Below are positions 2,892 through 13,881 of a stretch of 32,098 bases of DNA, in pieces. This DNA is from a virus. Position 1 is the stretch's first letter. Every line of letters starts with the position of its first letter. The notes beneath the pieces were generated by a model. It was not told the origin of the DNA. It did not search any database and was given only the letters and a program-made list of their open reading frames with translations. The position numbers and the translations under genes were made by a program. The stretch spans positions 1 through 32,098 of the IMG/VR virus record IMGVR_UViG_3300022926_000065, one strand, 5' to 3'.

Positions 2892-3064
2892 TACTTCGAC
2901 CCCTTTTGCATTAGTAGTGATGTTAATAATAACTTAATATCTTTAAGTTCTTTTCTTAATTCTTTAATCTCTAAAAGAATTTCAGAATCTTGCTGTTCTT
3001 CTTTTTTAATTTCTTCTTGTGCTAGTGCTTGCGCTCTAAACTCAGGTATTTGGCTTAACTTCAT
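2891..3064 (-). CDS. 57-residue coiled-coil ORF between heme oxygenase and bilin reductase
   Basis: Starts MKLSQIPEFRAQALAQEEIK and ends LLMQKGSK. From about residue 15 to 50 it is a continuous charged amphipathic helix with heptad Leu/Ile spacing (ILLEIKELRKELKDIKLLL), a likely coiled coil. Its ATG (complement of 3062-3064) lies inside the last codons of the heme oxygenase gene in another frame. Its TAA shares bases with the ATG of the bilin reductase (TAATG). Such tight two-sided coupling makes it a probable real gene, perhaps a small adaptor in the pathway or only a translation coupler. I know no homologue. Confidence 0.6.
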   Translation of the reverse strand: MKLSQIPEFRAQALAQEEIKKEEQQDSEILLEIKELRKELKDIKLLLTSLLMQKGSK

Positions 3065-3590
3065 CCATCATCTCCTGGAACAATTTTGTTGCAAAGTCGA
3101 AACAGATACGTGCTTCATCAGCCATGCTATCGTTAAGTCTTTCTCTGATCGCTGTCTTTAAAGTATCTGAATCTTCAAAGTCAAACATTTTTCCTGCCCC
3201 TGGAATTTTCTTTCGGATCATTTGTCCGCCGGATAAGTCGCCCATGTGTCTTGTATATATATGTGCCATAAGTTTATCTGGGTCTCCAGAAATACTCATA
3301 ATATGGTCAGCATATTCTCTACTGCTTGGTGCAGTAGCAGGTGGGTTTTCTGAGTCTTCCCAAAGTTCATTAAAGTCTTCTAATATCTTTGGTGCTCTTC
3401 TAATGTCAGGAAGTCCATTAAGAACTCCTTGAGACATAGCAATAGTTTCTAGTATATTGTAATTAACATACTGATTGTATAAAAATGTTGCATAAACTTT
3501 TGGGTCAATATTTCCACCCATTAAAACTTTTACAAATTCCTGTCGTTCTGCATTCCGATGGTGCTCATGTGTTAATTCTTTTAAACTCAT
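3042..3590 (-). CDS. ho1: heme oxygenase
   Basis: 182 residues; family enzymes are about 200-240. Heme oxygenase opens heme to biliverdin, CO and Fe2+. The N-terminal helix holds the proximal-ligand motif THEHHRNAE (7-15) with H11 as the likely heme-iron ligand. The distal helix holds HMGDLSGGQMI, the family hallmark in which the Gly-rich kink lies over the heme. The C-terminus is shorter than in bacterial HO and has no membrane anchor. The start overlaps the end of clpS by four bases (ATGA). The next two genes (the 57-residue ORF and the bilin reductase) overlap in the same way, so clpS-ho-orf57-pcyX looks like one operon, and biliverdin is probably passed straight to the reductase. Confidence 0.93.
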   Translation of the reverse strand: MSLKELTHEHHRNAERQEFVKVLMGGNIDPKVYATFLYNQYVNYNILETIAMSQGVLNGLPDIRRAPKILEDFNELWEDSENPPATAPSSREYADHIMSISGDPDKLMAHIYTRHMGDLSGGQMIRKKIPGAGKMFDFEDSDTLKTAIRERLNDSMADEARICFDFATKLFQEMMDEVKPNT

Positions 3591-3889
3591 TCTTTCTCTA
3601 ACCTTATCTGTAATGGAAATCCGTGATTTCGACTTTGGTTAGTAGTTTCTATAGTTTTTTGTTCTGCTAACTCAAATGAGTAAATACCAACAATAGCACT
3701 ACCTTCTTGATGAATCTGCATAGTTAAATCTTTTGCAGTATCTTTACTATGTCTAAAAATAGATACTAAAATATCAATCACAAAGTCCATTGGAGTTTTG
3801 TCGTCATTTAAAAAAATTACTTTATATCTTTCAGGTACAGATACAAGTTGATCAATCTTTTCATCAATTAAAATTTCTGTGTTGCTCAT
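3587..3889 (-). CDS. clpS: ClpS-like N-degron adaptor for ClpAP
   Basis: 100 residues, the usual size. The core YKVIFLNDDKTPMDFVIDIL (22-41) matches the ClpS signature. N28, D29 and D30 correspond to the E. coli residues that grip the alpha-amino group of the N-degron, and H60 (in QIHQEG) to the binding-pocket His. The C-terminal HGFPLQIRLEKE matches the ClpA-contacting end of bacterial ClpS. It would redirect host ClpAP towards N-end-rule substrates, or occupy it. TAGGAGT lies before the ATG, and an ACTAAATA late-like motif (3905-3912) before that. It is the first gene of the bilin operon. Confidence 0.92.
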   Translation of the reverse strand: MSNTEILIDEKIDQLVSVPERYKVIFLNDDKTPMDFVIDILVSIFRHSKDTAKDLTMQIHQEGSAIVGIYSFELAEQKTIETTNQSRNHGFPLQIRLEKE

Positions 3890-3904
3890 AATTACTCCTA
3901 AAAA

Positions 3905-3912
3905 TATTTAGT
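3905..3912 (-). promoter_or_regulatory. late-like promoter variant ACTAAATA
   Basis: The minus strand reads ACTAAATATTTTT between the hairpin after hsp20 and clpS. The same ACTAAATA word occurs before nrdA (19056-19063) and before the gene at 26522 (26607-26614), which suggests a phage-specific late promoter variant. It would drive clpS-ho-orf57-pcyX. Confidence 0.45.
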
Positions 3913-3914
3913 AT

Positions 3915-3934
3915 AGGGGGAGTCTCCTCCCCCT
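3915..3934 (-). terminator. GC-rich hairpin after hsp20
   Basis: A perfect 8-bp stem (AGGGGGAG / CTCCCCCT) with a four-base loop lies 15 bases after the hsp20 stop. The T-rich stretch on the minus strand follows only after several bases (ATACTAAATATTTTT), so termination may be partial. Confidence 0.6.
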
Positions 3935-3948
3935 AAACCTGACTCGAG

Positions 3949-4410
3949 TTACTTGGCTGTTTTGCCTTCGATTGTGATACCTTCGTTAATCGCAATCTTC
4001 TTAGGTTGTAGTTCTTCTGGAACTTCACGCTTTAAGTGAATGTTAAGCATACCTAATTCAAGATTTGCATTAACTACTTCTACGTGATCAGCAAGAGTAA
4101 ACTCTCTGCGGAAAGAGCGGCCGCCAATACCTTTGTGTAGGTAATTTACGTCCTCATCTCCCTTAGGAGCCGTACCTTCAATTTTCAAAGTATTTTTATC
4201 TTTTTCAATTGAAAGATTGTCCATACCAAAGCCAGCAACGGCAAGCGAGATCATATACTCGTCATCGTTGATTTGTGCAATGTTGTATGGGGGATAACCA
4301 TTTCCATTTGGGCTATTTGCAAATGAACGTTCTAGTTCATCAAATAGTCTGTCAAAGCCAATAGTTGCTCTGTGGAAGTTAGGTAGGTCTAGAGTTGTTA
4401 GTCTTGTCAT
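3949..4410 (-). CDS. hsp20: Hsp20/IbpA-type small heat shock protein
   Basis: 153 residues. The N-terminus has the IbpA-like phrase FDRLFDELERSF; the alpha-crystallin domain runs from about 45 to 135 (PPYNIAQINDDEYMISLAVAGF, then GRSFRREFTLADHVEV). A conserved A-x-L-x-x-GxLxIxL-type stretch (ANLELGMLNIHLKRE) closes it. It is an ATP-independent holdase common in marine T4-like phages. The ATG at 4410 is chosen because AAGGAG lies seven bases upstream; a longer frame beginning with TTG at 4434 would include the Shine-Dalgarno itself. Both a sigma70-type and a late-type promoter precede it, with a structured leader between. Confidence 0.93.
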   Translation of the reverse strand: MTRLTTLDLPNFHRATIGFDRLFDELERSFANSPNGNGYPPYNIAQINDDEYMISLAVAGFGMDNLSIEKDKNTLKIEGTAPKGDEDVNYLHKGIGGRSFRREFTLADHVEVVNANLELGMLNIHLKREVPEELQPKKIAINEGITIEGKTAK

Positions 4411-4500
4411 TTTGTTTCTCCTTTTTAAAAGCAAGATTTGTATTATGGAATCCTTTCGGCATTCCGTTAGTGCAGTAAAGAATCAGTCTTTACTACAAAA
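4411..4500 (-). promoter_or_regulatory. structured hsp20 leader with ROSE-like Shine-Dalgarno hairpin
   Basis: On the minus strand the last part of the leader reads TCTTGCTTTT then AAAAAGGAGA. The TTGCT (complement of 4430-4434) can pair with AAGGAG (4418-4423), leaving a G bulged opposite the Shine-Dalgarno, as in ROSE RNA thermometers (U-U/C-G-C-U motif). Two more hairpins lie upstream: AGTAAAG/CTTTACT, and GGAAT..CC-GAAA-GG..ATTCC with a GAAA loop. ROSE elements are known before small heat shock genes of proteobacteria; the assignment here is inference from pairing and position. Confidence 0.5.
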
Positions 4501-4501
4501 G

Positions 4502-4509
4502 TATTTATC
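4502..4509 (-). promoter_or_regulatory. T4-type late promoter before hsp20
   Basis: The minus strand reads GATAAATACTTTT about 90 bases before the hsp20 ATG, downstream of the sigma70-type promoter. Confidence 0.5.
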
Positions 4510-4519
4510 ATACTAATAT

Positions 4520-4549
4520 ATTATATAGTCACTTTTAGATAAAAATCAA
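4520..4549 (-). promoter_or_regulatory. sigma70-type promoter before hsp20
   Basis: TTGATT (complement of 4544-4549), an 18-base spacer, then a perfect TATAAT (complement of 4520-4525). It would give hsp20 early, host-polymerase expression through the structured leader. Confidence 0.65.
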
Positions 4550-4553
4550 GTGC

Positions 4554-5681
4554 TTATTTTGCCAAAATATCGTTAAATTGTTTACTTACTTCTATAAAAG
4601 TAGCACATTTTGATAACTGTTTTAGTGTTGGTGCACCAACATAAGTACAAGTAGAACGCAAACCACCCAAGATATCTTGAATAGTATTACCCACTGGTCC
4701 TCTGTAAGGTACATGAACTTCTCTTCCTTCACTACTGCGATACTCCTTTAGTCCGCCAAAATGTTTTGTGTTTGCTTTGTCAGAACTCATTCCATAGAAT
4801 TCAACAAACTGTTTCTCTTCAAAAATTGGTGTAAATGATCCGTCAGTATTTCGCTTCCACTGATCACTTTGAAACCATTTGGAATAAACACTACCACCGC
4901 CTTCATCGTGGCCTGCGAGCATTCCCCCAAGCATAACGTAATCTGCTCCGCCAGCAAAGGCTTTAGCGATGTCTCCTGGACAGGTGCATCCGCCGTCTGC
5001 GATAATGTGCCCGCCGAGGCCATGAGCGGCATCTGCACATTCGATGACTGCTGAGAGTTGTGGGTATCCCACCCCAGTTTGAATCCTAGTAGTACAGACA
5101 CTACCAGGACCGATCCCCACTTTAACAATATCCGCACCATTTAATATTAACTCCTGCGTTTGATCTCCAGTAACAACATTACCGGCAATGATAACAATGT
5201 TTGGAAATTCTTTTCTTAGTTTCGCAATGTATTCTGTAAAAAACTTTGTATATCCGTTAGCAACATCAACACATACATATTTAACGTTTTCTGAATATAC
5301 ATTTCTAAACTTACTTAAATCCTTTTCAGTAATGCCCATTGAGTATGCAACGTGTTCTTTACGTGTTTCTGTAGTAAAGAAATCTTTTAGTTCGTCTACA
5401 CTATAAGTTTTAACTAAGCAAGTAAATAATCCTAGTTCAGCAAGTGTATCTGCCATTTTAAATGTGCCAACACTGTCCATATTTGCCGCCATAATAGGAA
5501 TACCGTTATAATGTGGATTACTATCAGGCCGTAAAATTTCCATACTCATTTCAGTAGGCACATAATTACGAAATGTGTAATGTTTTGTTAACCCAACATC
5601 TTTTCTACTGCCAAGCGTTGATCGCTTTGGACGTAATAAAACATTCGTGTAGTCTAATTTTAAACCTTGTTCAATACGCAT
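4554..5681 (-). CDS. guaC: GMP reductase
   Basis: 375 residues (E. coli GuaC 347). The enzyme converts GMP to IMP and NH3 with NADPH. The N-terminal KLDYTNVLLRPKRS and the Cys loop VGIGPGSVCTTR with C196 (E. coli C186) are diagnostic. Then come GVGYPQLSAVIECADAAHG, DGGCTCPGD, GGADYVMLGGMLAGH and the C-terminal GGLRSTCTYVGA. The absence of CBS domains and the closeness to GuaC rather than GuaB favour reductase over IMP dehydrogenase. Some 20-30 extra residues lie near positions 255-300. Its stop-to-start contact with the upstream 2OG oxygenase (5681) suggests an operon. In a phage it would move guanine nucleotides toward IMP and adenine pools. Confidence 0.93.
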   Translation of the reverse strand: MRIEQGLKLDYTNVLLRPKRSTLGSRKDVGLTKHYTFRNYVPTEMSMEILRPDSNPHYNGIPIMAANMDSVGTFKMADTLAELGLFTCLVKTYSVDELKDFFTTETRKEHVAYSMGITEKDLSKFRNVYSENVKYVCVDVANGYTKFFTEYIAKLRKEFPNIVIIAGNVVTGDQTQELILNGADIVKVGIGPGSVCTTRIQTGVGYPQLSAVIECADAAHGLGGHIIADGGCTCPGDIAKAFAGGADYVMLGGMLAGHDEGGGSVYSKWFQSDQWKRNTDGSFTPIFEEKQFVEFYGMSSDKANTKHFGGLKEYRSSEGREVHVPYRGPVGNTIQDILGGLRSTCTYVGAPTLKQLSKCATFIEVSKQFNDILAK

Positions 5682-12551: not shown

Positions 12552-12626
12552 TGGTGCCGACGGAGAGAATCGAACTCCCAATCTACTGATTACAAATCAG
12601 TTGCCTTACCATTCGGCCACGTCGGC
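12552..12626 (-). tRNA. tRNA-Thr (anticodon TGT)
   Basis: 75 bases including an encoded CCA (complement of 12552-12554). Acceptor GCCGACG pairs with CGTCGGC, discriminator A. Anticodon arm ACTGA-TTTGTAA-TCAGT gives anticodon TGT for ACA codons. T-arm with GTTCGATTC. All arms close. Confidence 0.93.
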
Positions 12627-12649
12627 AATGTAGTATTTAATATAAAATT

Positions 12650-12723
12650 TGGAGCGGGTAAGGAGAATCGAACTCCTAGCATCAGATTGGAAATCTGAGG
12701 TATTACCATTATACGATACCCGC
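12650..12723 (-). tRNA. tRNA-Gly (anticodon TCC)
   Basis: 74 bases including an encoded CCA. Acceptor GCGGGTA pairs with TACCCGC, discriminator T. Anticodon arm TCAGA-TTTCCAA-TCTGA gives TCC for GGA codons. T-arm AGGAG-TTCGATT-CTCCT. Confidence 0.93.
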
Positions 12724-12727
12724 AATT

Positions 12728-12813
12728 TGGCATAGGTGGAGGGATTCGAACCCCCTAGCATCTCTGCTCTAGTTTTGGAGACTAGTGTGACACTCCAACT
12801 TCACCGCACCTAC
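12728..12813 (-). tRNA. tRNA with Trp anticodon (CCA) and long variable arm
   Basis: 86 bases including an encoded CCA. Acceptor GTAGGTG pairs with CACCTAT (first pair G-T), discriminator G. D-stem GTGA/TCAC. Anticodon arm CTAGT-CTCCAAA-ACTAG gives anticodon CCA for UGG. T-arm GGGGG-TTCGAAT-CCCTC. Between anticodon and T stems lie 13 bases (AGC-AGAGAT-GCT-A) able to form a small hairpin, as in class II tRNAs, whereas normal tRNA-Trp has about five. Position 8 is C instead of the usual T. Identity is therefore Trp by anticodon but Ser/Leu/Tyr-like by shape. Confidence 0.75.
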
Positions 12814-13265: not shown

Positions 13266-13562
13266 TGCTCGATGAGCACTAAACGTTAAGGTGCAACTTT
13301 TCTGTTGCCAGGTAAGTTGCCAACCCCGTAGCCTAACTAATTAGGCCGCAAGAGCAAAGTTTTCGTTTGCGTCTATAGATTTGCTTGATTTACGGTCATC
13401 GCCTACCGGTAACTCCACTGCGCCTATGCCGTGTATCGATCCTGTTTCACCCCCATCATAACTACATGAAAATTGTCTGTGTTAATCTCTCCATGTAGTT
13501 ATGGTGGAGGTGGGCGGTACTGCCCCGCCGTCTACTCCGTCGTCAACGTGCTTCAACGTTAC
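13266..13562 (-). ncRNA. ssrA: transfer-messenger RNA, permuted two-piece type
   Basis: On the minus strand the acceptor piece comes first: T-arm GGCGG-GGCAGTA-CCGCC, then CACCTCC, A and an encoded CCA (ends 13502). A spacer of about 47 bases with a perfect 12-base inverted repeat (13457-13468 / 13492-13503) follows. The coding piece starts GGGGGTGAAACAGGATCGA at 13454. GGGGGTG pairs with CACCTCC and carries the G3-U70 pair that AlaRS recognises. The tag frame is GCA AAC GAA ... GCC TAA (13341-13370), encoding ANENFALAA, preceded by ATAGAC (E. coli ATAGTC). The circular permutation and GGCAGTA T-loop are, as I know them, alphaproteobacterial features. Its promoter is a perfect TATAAATA. The two outer ends are approximate. 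Confidence 0.9.
13341..13370 (-). other. tmRNA degradation-tag reading frame
   Basis: Nine sense codons give ANENFALAA followed by TAA; E. coli has ANDENYALAA. The LAA end is the ClpXP/ClpAP-recognised degron. Confidence 0.88.
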
Positions 13563-13567
13563 AAGTA

Positions 13568-13575
13568 TATTTATA
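13568..13575 (-). promoter_or_regulatory. T4-type late promoter of the tmRNA
   Basis: Perfect TATAAATA on the minus strand, about 55 bases before the T-arm of the acceptor piece. The expected start is near 13562. Confidence 0.65.
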
Positions 13576-13581
13576 ACACCT

Positions 13582-13881
13582 TTATACGGTGATGTCAACC
13601 TCTTTTTTTGTTTTTTCTTTGGATTTTGATTGCCTAATTGGTTCTAACCAACTGTCTGCAATGTAGGCTTGTGGACTTGGTCCAAATAGAATAGACAAAT
13701 CGTCTGCTTCTATCCACCAGTAGTGATCTGTAATTACACAAGTGCAGGGCATTCCCCTAAACTGGAATTGCTCGTTCTGTTCAAATCGTCCGATGTACTC
13801 TTTTACCTTTACAATACGTCCGATGTTTTCTGGTCTTAGTGAAAATTTAATTTGGGCAAGGTCGCCCTGGTTGCACTTCAT
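13582..13881 (-). CDS. small SH3-like phage protein, unknown
   Basis: 99 residues. Beta-rich beginning (GDLAQIKFSLRPENIGRIVKVKEYIG) resembling small SH3/KOW-like barrels, then ITDHYWWIEADDLSILFG and AYIADSWLEPI, a phrase that recurs in phage small proteins of unknown role. The tail is Lys-rich. Its ATG overlaps the stop region of the cold-shock gene (position 13881 shared), so the two are translated together. The gene ends just before the tmRNA promoter. Confidence 0.6.
   Translation of the reverse strand: MKCNQGDLAQIKFSLRPENIGRIVKVKEYIGRFEQNEQFQFRGMPCTCVITDHYWWIEADDLSILFGPSPQAYIADSWLEPIRQSKSKEKTKKEVDITV

Follow-up and report, generated by a model that had tools for sequence, protein, structure and literature searches.

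A short two-hairpin ROSE-like element, very probably an RNA thermometer, in the leader of a phage hsp20 gene

The hsp20 locus and the structure of its leader

The stretch of viral DNA analysed here (32,098 nucleotides, referred to below as the window) comes from a virus of marine bacteria and contains on its minus strand a gene for a 153-residue protein of the Hsp20/alpha-crystallin family, with the ATG at position 4410 and the stop at 3949. Within the region 3042-5681 (minus strand) hsp20 is preceded by a gene resembling those for IMPDH/GMP reductase and followed by genes for a ClpS adaptor and a heme oxygenase. Elsewhere on the same strand (13290-13613 and 12552-12813) lie a permuted, two-piece tmRNA of the alphaproteobacterial type and then genes for tRNA-Trp, tRNA-Gly and tRNA-Thr. 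Given the strong GC hairpin at its 3' side, hsp20 is probably transcribed alone, as a transcript of its own with no co-transcribed neighbour; this hairpin is absent from the output of the terminator scan, its T-run being too far away. In the 5' to 3' direction, the sigma70-like hexamers are followed by ATAAATA, hairpin 1, hairpin 2, the Shine-Dalgarno (SD) hairpin and the hsp20 ATG:

4520-4549, minus strand: sigma70-like hexamers TTGATT and TATAAT spaced by 18 nt, at chance level
4502-4508, minus strand: T4-type late-promoter motif ATAAATA, conserved in related leaders
4471-4497, minus strand: hairpin 1, an extra upstream hairpin of 11 bp (-11.5 kcal/mol, z -5.2)
4447-4465, minus strand: hairpin 2, the 5' hairpin of the element, 5 bp, with bulged G4460, CC/GG and the GNRA loop GAAA (-7.8 kcal/mol, z -3.1); strong covariation
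4416-4466, minus strand: compact two-hairpin ROSE-like element (covariance model R1, 53.9 bits, E 3.8e-15)
4417-4436, minus strand: SD hairpin over the SD, in which UCUU, the bulged G4432 and CUUU pair with AAAGGAGA; core invariant, outer pair covarying
4418-4423, minus strand: SD sequence AAGGAG, assigned from the sequence, 7 nt before the ATG
3949-4410, minus strand: hsp20 coding sequence (Pfam PF00011, E 1.9e-15)
3909-3938, minus strand: terminator-like GC hairpin 3' of hsp20 (-21 kcal/mol, z -3.6)

The preliminary description of this DNA had proposed that both a sigma70-type and a late promoter feed the leader, of which only the late promoter held up. Related leaders were obtained from 80 viral loci picked solely by similarity of the Hsp20 protein, which yielded 49 unique sequences; ATAAATA occurs within 160 nt of the ATG in 48 of these leaders, at a distance of 55-98 nt, as against 1.7% of control segments. 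Sigma70-type sites are no more frequent in the region than expected by chance (3 found, 2.6 expected), and an 11/12 match is present in only 11 of the 49 related leaders.

The leader structure extends from about 4497 to 4411 on the minus strand and contains the compact two-hairpin fold of the ROSE type. Its last hairpin had been described as placing TTGCT against AAGGAG with a bulged G, and this pairing was recovered: T4436-C-T-T-(G4432 bulged)-C-T-T-T4428 faces A4424-A-A-G-G-A-G-A4417, and the RNAalifold consensus agrees. UUGCU (4434-4430) thus lies opposite AAGGAG (4423-4418) in the imperfect U(U/C)GCU-SD pairing that characterises the ROSE-like class, and G4432, unpaired between U4433-G4420 and C4431-G4421, is the bulged G of that class. 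The general layout is also that of the class, with two to four hairpins, the SD in the 3'-most of them and a heat-shock gene downstream. The leader is not of the fourU type, as the SD is opposite UCUUGCUU and the UUUU at 4430-4427 is located at the loop end, facing A residues. A second partner for the anti-SD strand is CAAGA in codons 2-3 (ATG ACA AGA; window 4436-4402, minus strand), to which its UCUUG is complementary; this alternative pairing, which spans the start codon, is kept in the MTR... clade and absent from many other phages.

Two further hairpins had been reported upstream, and both are present (4497-4471 and 4465-4447). Hairpin 2 reads GGAAU-G-CC-GAAA-GG-AUUCC. Conservation does not extend to hairpin 1; in several relatives it is missing or a promoter occupies its place. 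The whole leader folds more stably than shuffled sequences (z -3.5); the isolated SD hairpin is no more stable than its shuffles (z -0.5), so the argument must rest on conservation.

Conservation and covariation of the element

CTTGCT...AGGAG was found next to the start codon in all 49 unique related hsp20 leaders. A more distant set of 71 viral hsp20 leaders, chosen by protein alone at 41-73% protein identity, showed the signature U(U/C)GCU...AGGAG in 65 cases; three others are near misses (L314, L341, L342) and the signature is clearly missing in the remaining three (L304, L335, L344). The preliminary description had named loss of the pairing in relatives as refuting its reading; the pairing motif is kept well beyond the closest sequences. 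A blastn search of the window leader against phage records gave no match.

Covariance model R1 was built from the leaders of 19 relatives sharing one loop length, the window sequence not being part of the training set. MAFFT alignments of all leaders put the SD in the wrong place, and the remaining leaders were therefore aligned to R1. The scan of the 32-kb window detected the hsp20 leader (score listed above) and no other convincing match, hsp20 being the sole gene there with the element. Across 100 sources (444 kb), 89 matches at E<=0.01 were obtained at the expected leader positions, and all of those inspected precede hsp20 or dnaK. Second matches in two sources (G008 and G009) were rejected, having E>0.05 and no gene downstream.

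In the alignment of the 89 elements, which was fitted to the R1 structure and is biased towards it, 96.4% of cells are paired compared with 78.9% in shuffles, double-sided changes occupy 222 cells compared with 58, and the covariation score is 0.437 compared with 0.121 for shuffles and at most 0.09 for slid structures. The 5' hairpin contributes most of this covariation; its stem is freely rewritten while the bulged G and the CC/GG pairs are kept. The inner pairs of the SD helix are nearly invariant, as is expected because one of its strands must also pair with 16S rRNA, and most of these pairs therefore cannot display covariation. The outer pair of the helix is compensated (UA in 56 elements, CG in 7, AU in 3, and not paired in 20); in 70 non-redundant phage leaders, none of 5000 shuffles pairs as well at this position. 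RNAalifold recovers both hairpins unaided, including the SD hairpin.

Distribution among viruses, cellular genomes and chaperone genes

The carriers of the element include genomes of cultured pelagiphages, methylophages and cyanophages as well as many marine and freshwater viruses. Among cultured phages, R1 detected it before hsp20 in Melnitz (E 2.3e-13) and Mosig (4.7e-8), and it also precedes hsp20 in P-SSM4, S-RSM4, S-PM2, Sinorhizobium phage Phosso and phage C48C1, and in the phages Syn33, S-H35, S-CAM4, P-RSM1 and S-H38. The hsp20 leader of HTVC008M gave a weak match (E 0.009), and no element was found at hsp20 of S-TIM5. Pseudomonas phage Y7, an unverified 22-kb record that is probably bacterial DNA, was left out of the counts.

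The element is also present in 25 of 32 small AT-rich alphaproteobacterial genomes (0.9-2.0 Mb) from the order of the MAG holding locus L204. Nearly all of the strong cellular matches fetched lie on an hsp20 gene whose protein starts with MQN, and by size, base composition and protein these small genomes look like SAR11; at least one further match, in G026, sits on a phage-like contig (L368). On the Hsp20 tree the proteins of these cellular genomes form one clade with pelagiphage-type neighbours, and the window clade lies elsewhere.

Copies also stand before dnaK, groES and groEL in other phages, the products being assigned by Pfam (L127, L128, L158, L180, L200, L359-L367, L422-L501), and often the same genome has another copy on hsp20. 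The signature stands directly before dnaK in 77 of 80 viral dnaK loci picked by protein; among the exceptions, L456 is truncated where its contig ends. The two others, L496 and L500, have CTTACTT for CTTGCTT, that is, an A instead of the near-invariant bulged G. Most of the 80 loci possess a second copy of the element behind dnaK, and it precedes hsp20 in all 47 examples examined. A scan for groES with a single protein found only two loci, both already known. The element is thus wider than first proposed, being chaperone-wide in many phages and common to alphaproteobacterial genomes as well. Weaker copies, with UUCGCU followed by AAGGAAA, were seen in two phages (L357, G022:C1:83167-83225, E 8.6e-5; L358, G021:C1:118173-118227, E 0.02) before genes whose small products (92 and 77 aa) have no Pfam match; both phages also have the hsp20 copy.

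Thermometer reading, alternatives and known ROSE elements

The preliminary reading of the leader as ROSE-like is borne out by its architecture, core motif, gene context, conservation, covariation and similarity to the Rfam family ROSE_3. On these observations the phage hsp20 mRNA very probably carries in its 5' leader an RNA thermometer of the short, two-hairpin ROSE-like type; from them we infer occlusion of the SD in the cell, the melting temperature and heat induction during infection. Transcription from a late-type promoter would yield a leader in which U(U/C)GCU, with its bulged G, is paired to the SD in the last hairpin. At low temperature this hairpin would keep ribosomes off the hsp20 mRNA, and warming would melt the weak pairs that flank the bulged G so that Hsp20 is made, while the 5' hairpin would stay folded and may insulate the sensor or aid its folding.

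Predicted SD exposure of the window leader rises mildly from 0.26 to 0.56 between 5 and 55°C (ViennaRNA), with no sharp melting, and its average in other genes of these phages is not much different. Bona fide ROSE elements show almost no melting in the same calculation, which is therefore uninformative rather than contrary; as it neither separates the element from control genes nor reveals melting in bona fide ROSE, it was not used as support. At 25°C the isolated SD hairpin has a mean of -3.8 kcal/mol in phages and -4.3 kcal/mol in the cellular genomes, compared with -7.4 to -11.4 kcal/mol in Bradyrhizobium-type ROSE, which makes the phage hairpin weaker by about 4 kcal/mol or more; two of four Bradyrhizobium-type hairpins fall to -3.8 to -3.9 kcal/mol only near 45°C. 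A quoted rule of thumb takes -5 to -6 kcal/mol as enough for inhibition of translation (PMC3669281). Since the window hairpin has -5.7 kcal/mol at 15°C and -4.9 kcal/mol at 20°C, its hold is predicted to be lost near 20°C. These modelled energies suggest a switching threshold near that temperature; AT-richness alone would push the value the same way.

Three other explanations were weighed. The first, which is improbable, is that the ROSE fold mediates translational control answering a protein or the stage of infection, for example the phage repressor RegA, and not temperature. The conserved bulged-G 5' hairpin with its GNRA or UUCG loops is a possible protein site, S-PM2, S-RSM4 and S-CAM4 have regA immediately upstream of hsp20, and the response of the thermometer to temperature is itself something we infer. 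However, nearly all loci examined concern chaperone genes only (hsp20, dnaK, groES, groEL), which together with the ROSE core fits control by heat; the 5' stem varies freely in sequence with its pairs kept, unlike most protein sites, and the element occurs in cellular genomes too. Slightly less probable again is an ordinary strong ribosome-binding site, in which the match of CUUGCUU to the SD is incidental and the stable 5' hairpin merely protects the mRNA. The weakness of the isolated SD hairpin, not above shuffles, would agree with this, but the persistence of CUUGCU in every near leader and of U(U/C)GCU in 65 of the 71 distant ones, while the surrounding linker varies freely, and the covariation of the outer pair argue against it. 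It is hardly credible that the element came with the gene from a host and persists as a relic without function in a lytic phage. Inheritance is possible, as the same element stands on hsp20 of alphaproteobacterial genomes, but strong covariation among phages and its use in four families of chaperone genes point to purifying selection and reuse.

The element is real and, as a very probable thermometer, represents a new phage branch of the short ROSE-like type. The viruses with it probably have their own heat-sensing control of chaperones. It is somewhat more plausible than not that some phages possess an RNA-only heat-shock regulon, in which separate thermometer copies on hsp20, dnaK, groES and groEL, several per genome, switch at about 20°C (15-25°C) and make chaperone production respond to heat in the infected cell, with no need for the host heat-shock sigma factor. 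To our knowledge, the phage RNA thermometers known so far can be counted on one hand, and hsp20 is regarded as a core gene of T4-like cyanophages. A ROSE-like element occurs on hsp20 of cultured phages that infect cyanobacteria, Pelagibacter and OM43, and many uncultured phages have it on chaperone genes. This suggests direct control of phage chaperone synthesis by the temperature of the water; the reason why phages carry hsp20 becomes testable, and naturally low-temperature thermometers are on offer.

The thermometers named in phages, lambda cIII, SPbeta blyA (fourU) and the sigma70 gene of gut Caudoviricetes (fourU) (PMC11182007, PMC10586365), likewise act in phage mRNA but are not ROSE elements, concern other genes and do not form a multi-gene chaperone set. 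No phage ROSE or chaperone-gene thermometer was found in the open-licence literature (PMC11182007, PMC10586365), and an earlier notice elsewhere is possible. Neither hsp nor heat shock is mentioned in a 2009 survey of Pelagibacter for structured RNAs (PMC2704228). Some cyanophages carry another structured RNA, the manA motif, which is reported to precede genes including those for ibpA chaperones (PMC2864571); it has no match in the sequences scanned here.

The Rfam ROSE search proposed in the preliminary description succeeded in part. At the gathering cutoff no ROSE was detected in the window; a permissive search gave RF02523 (ROSE_3) as the best match by E-value at the hsp20 leader (4468-4405; 24.3 bits, E 0.0027 for 181 bases), below the cutoff of 43 bits. 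ROSE_3 matches the same leader position in 7 of 20 close relatives, with up to 37.5 bits (L009), and one phage relative exceeds the cutoff (L324, 46.1 bits). Freshwater-2, PGK and other Rfam matches in the leader were below their cutoffs and were rejected. Since its architecture and motif fit while its score is below the cutoff, the window element is, as judged from sequence, ROSE-like and not a formal member of RF02523. The four-hairpin ROSE model RF00435 has no match in the window, whereas Bradyrhizobium loci reach 82 bits. The nearest cellular Hsp20 proteins found belong largely to the Bradyrhizobium ROSE group (about 50% identity), and classical Bradyrhizobium ROSE agrees with the element in its bulged-G 5' hairpin and SD-hairpin core but contains three to four hairpins, the SD hairpin being far more stable. 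The closest likeness is to the experimentally proven short ROSE thermometers of Pseudomonas, which have a two-hairpin layout with a heat-stable first hairpin and U(U/C)GCU and the SD in the second (PMC3669281). Like the Pseudomonas ibpA element (RF02523; PMC3669281), the phage type comprises about 60-70 nt and two hairpins, the 5' one stable, with U(U/C)GCU and its bulged G against the SD directly before a small heat-shock gene; unlike it, the phage type is AT-rich, has a weaker SD hairpin, is mostly phage-borne, driven by a late promoter and below the Rfam cutoff in most cases, and in other phages is also placed on dnaK, groES and groEL.
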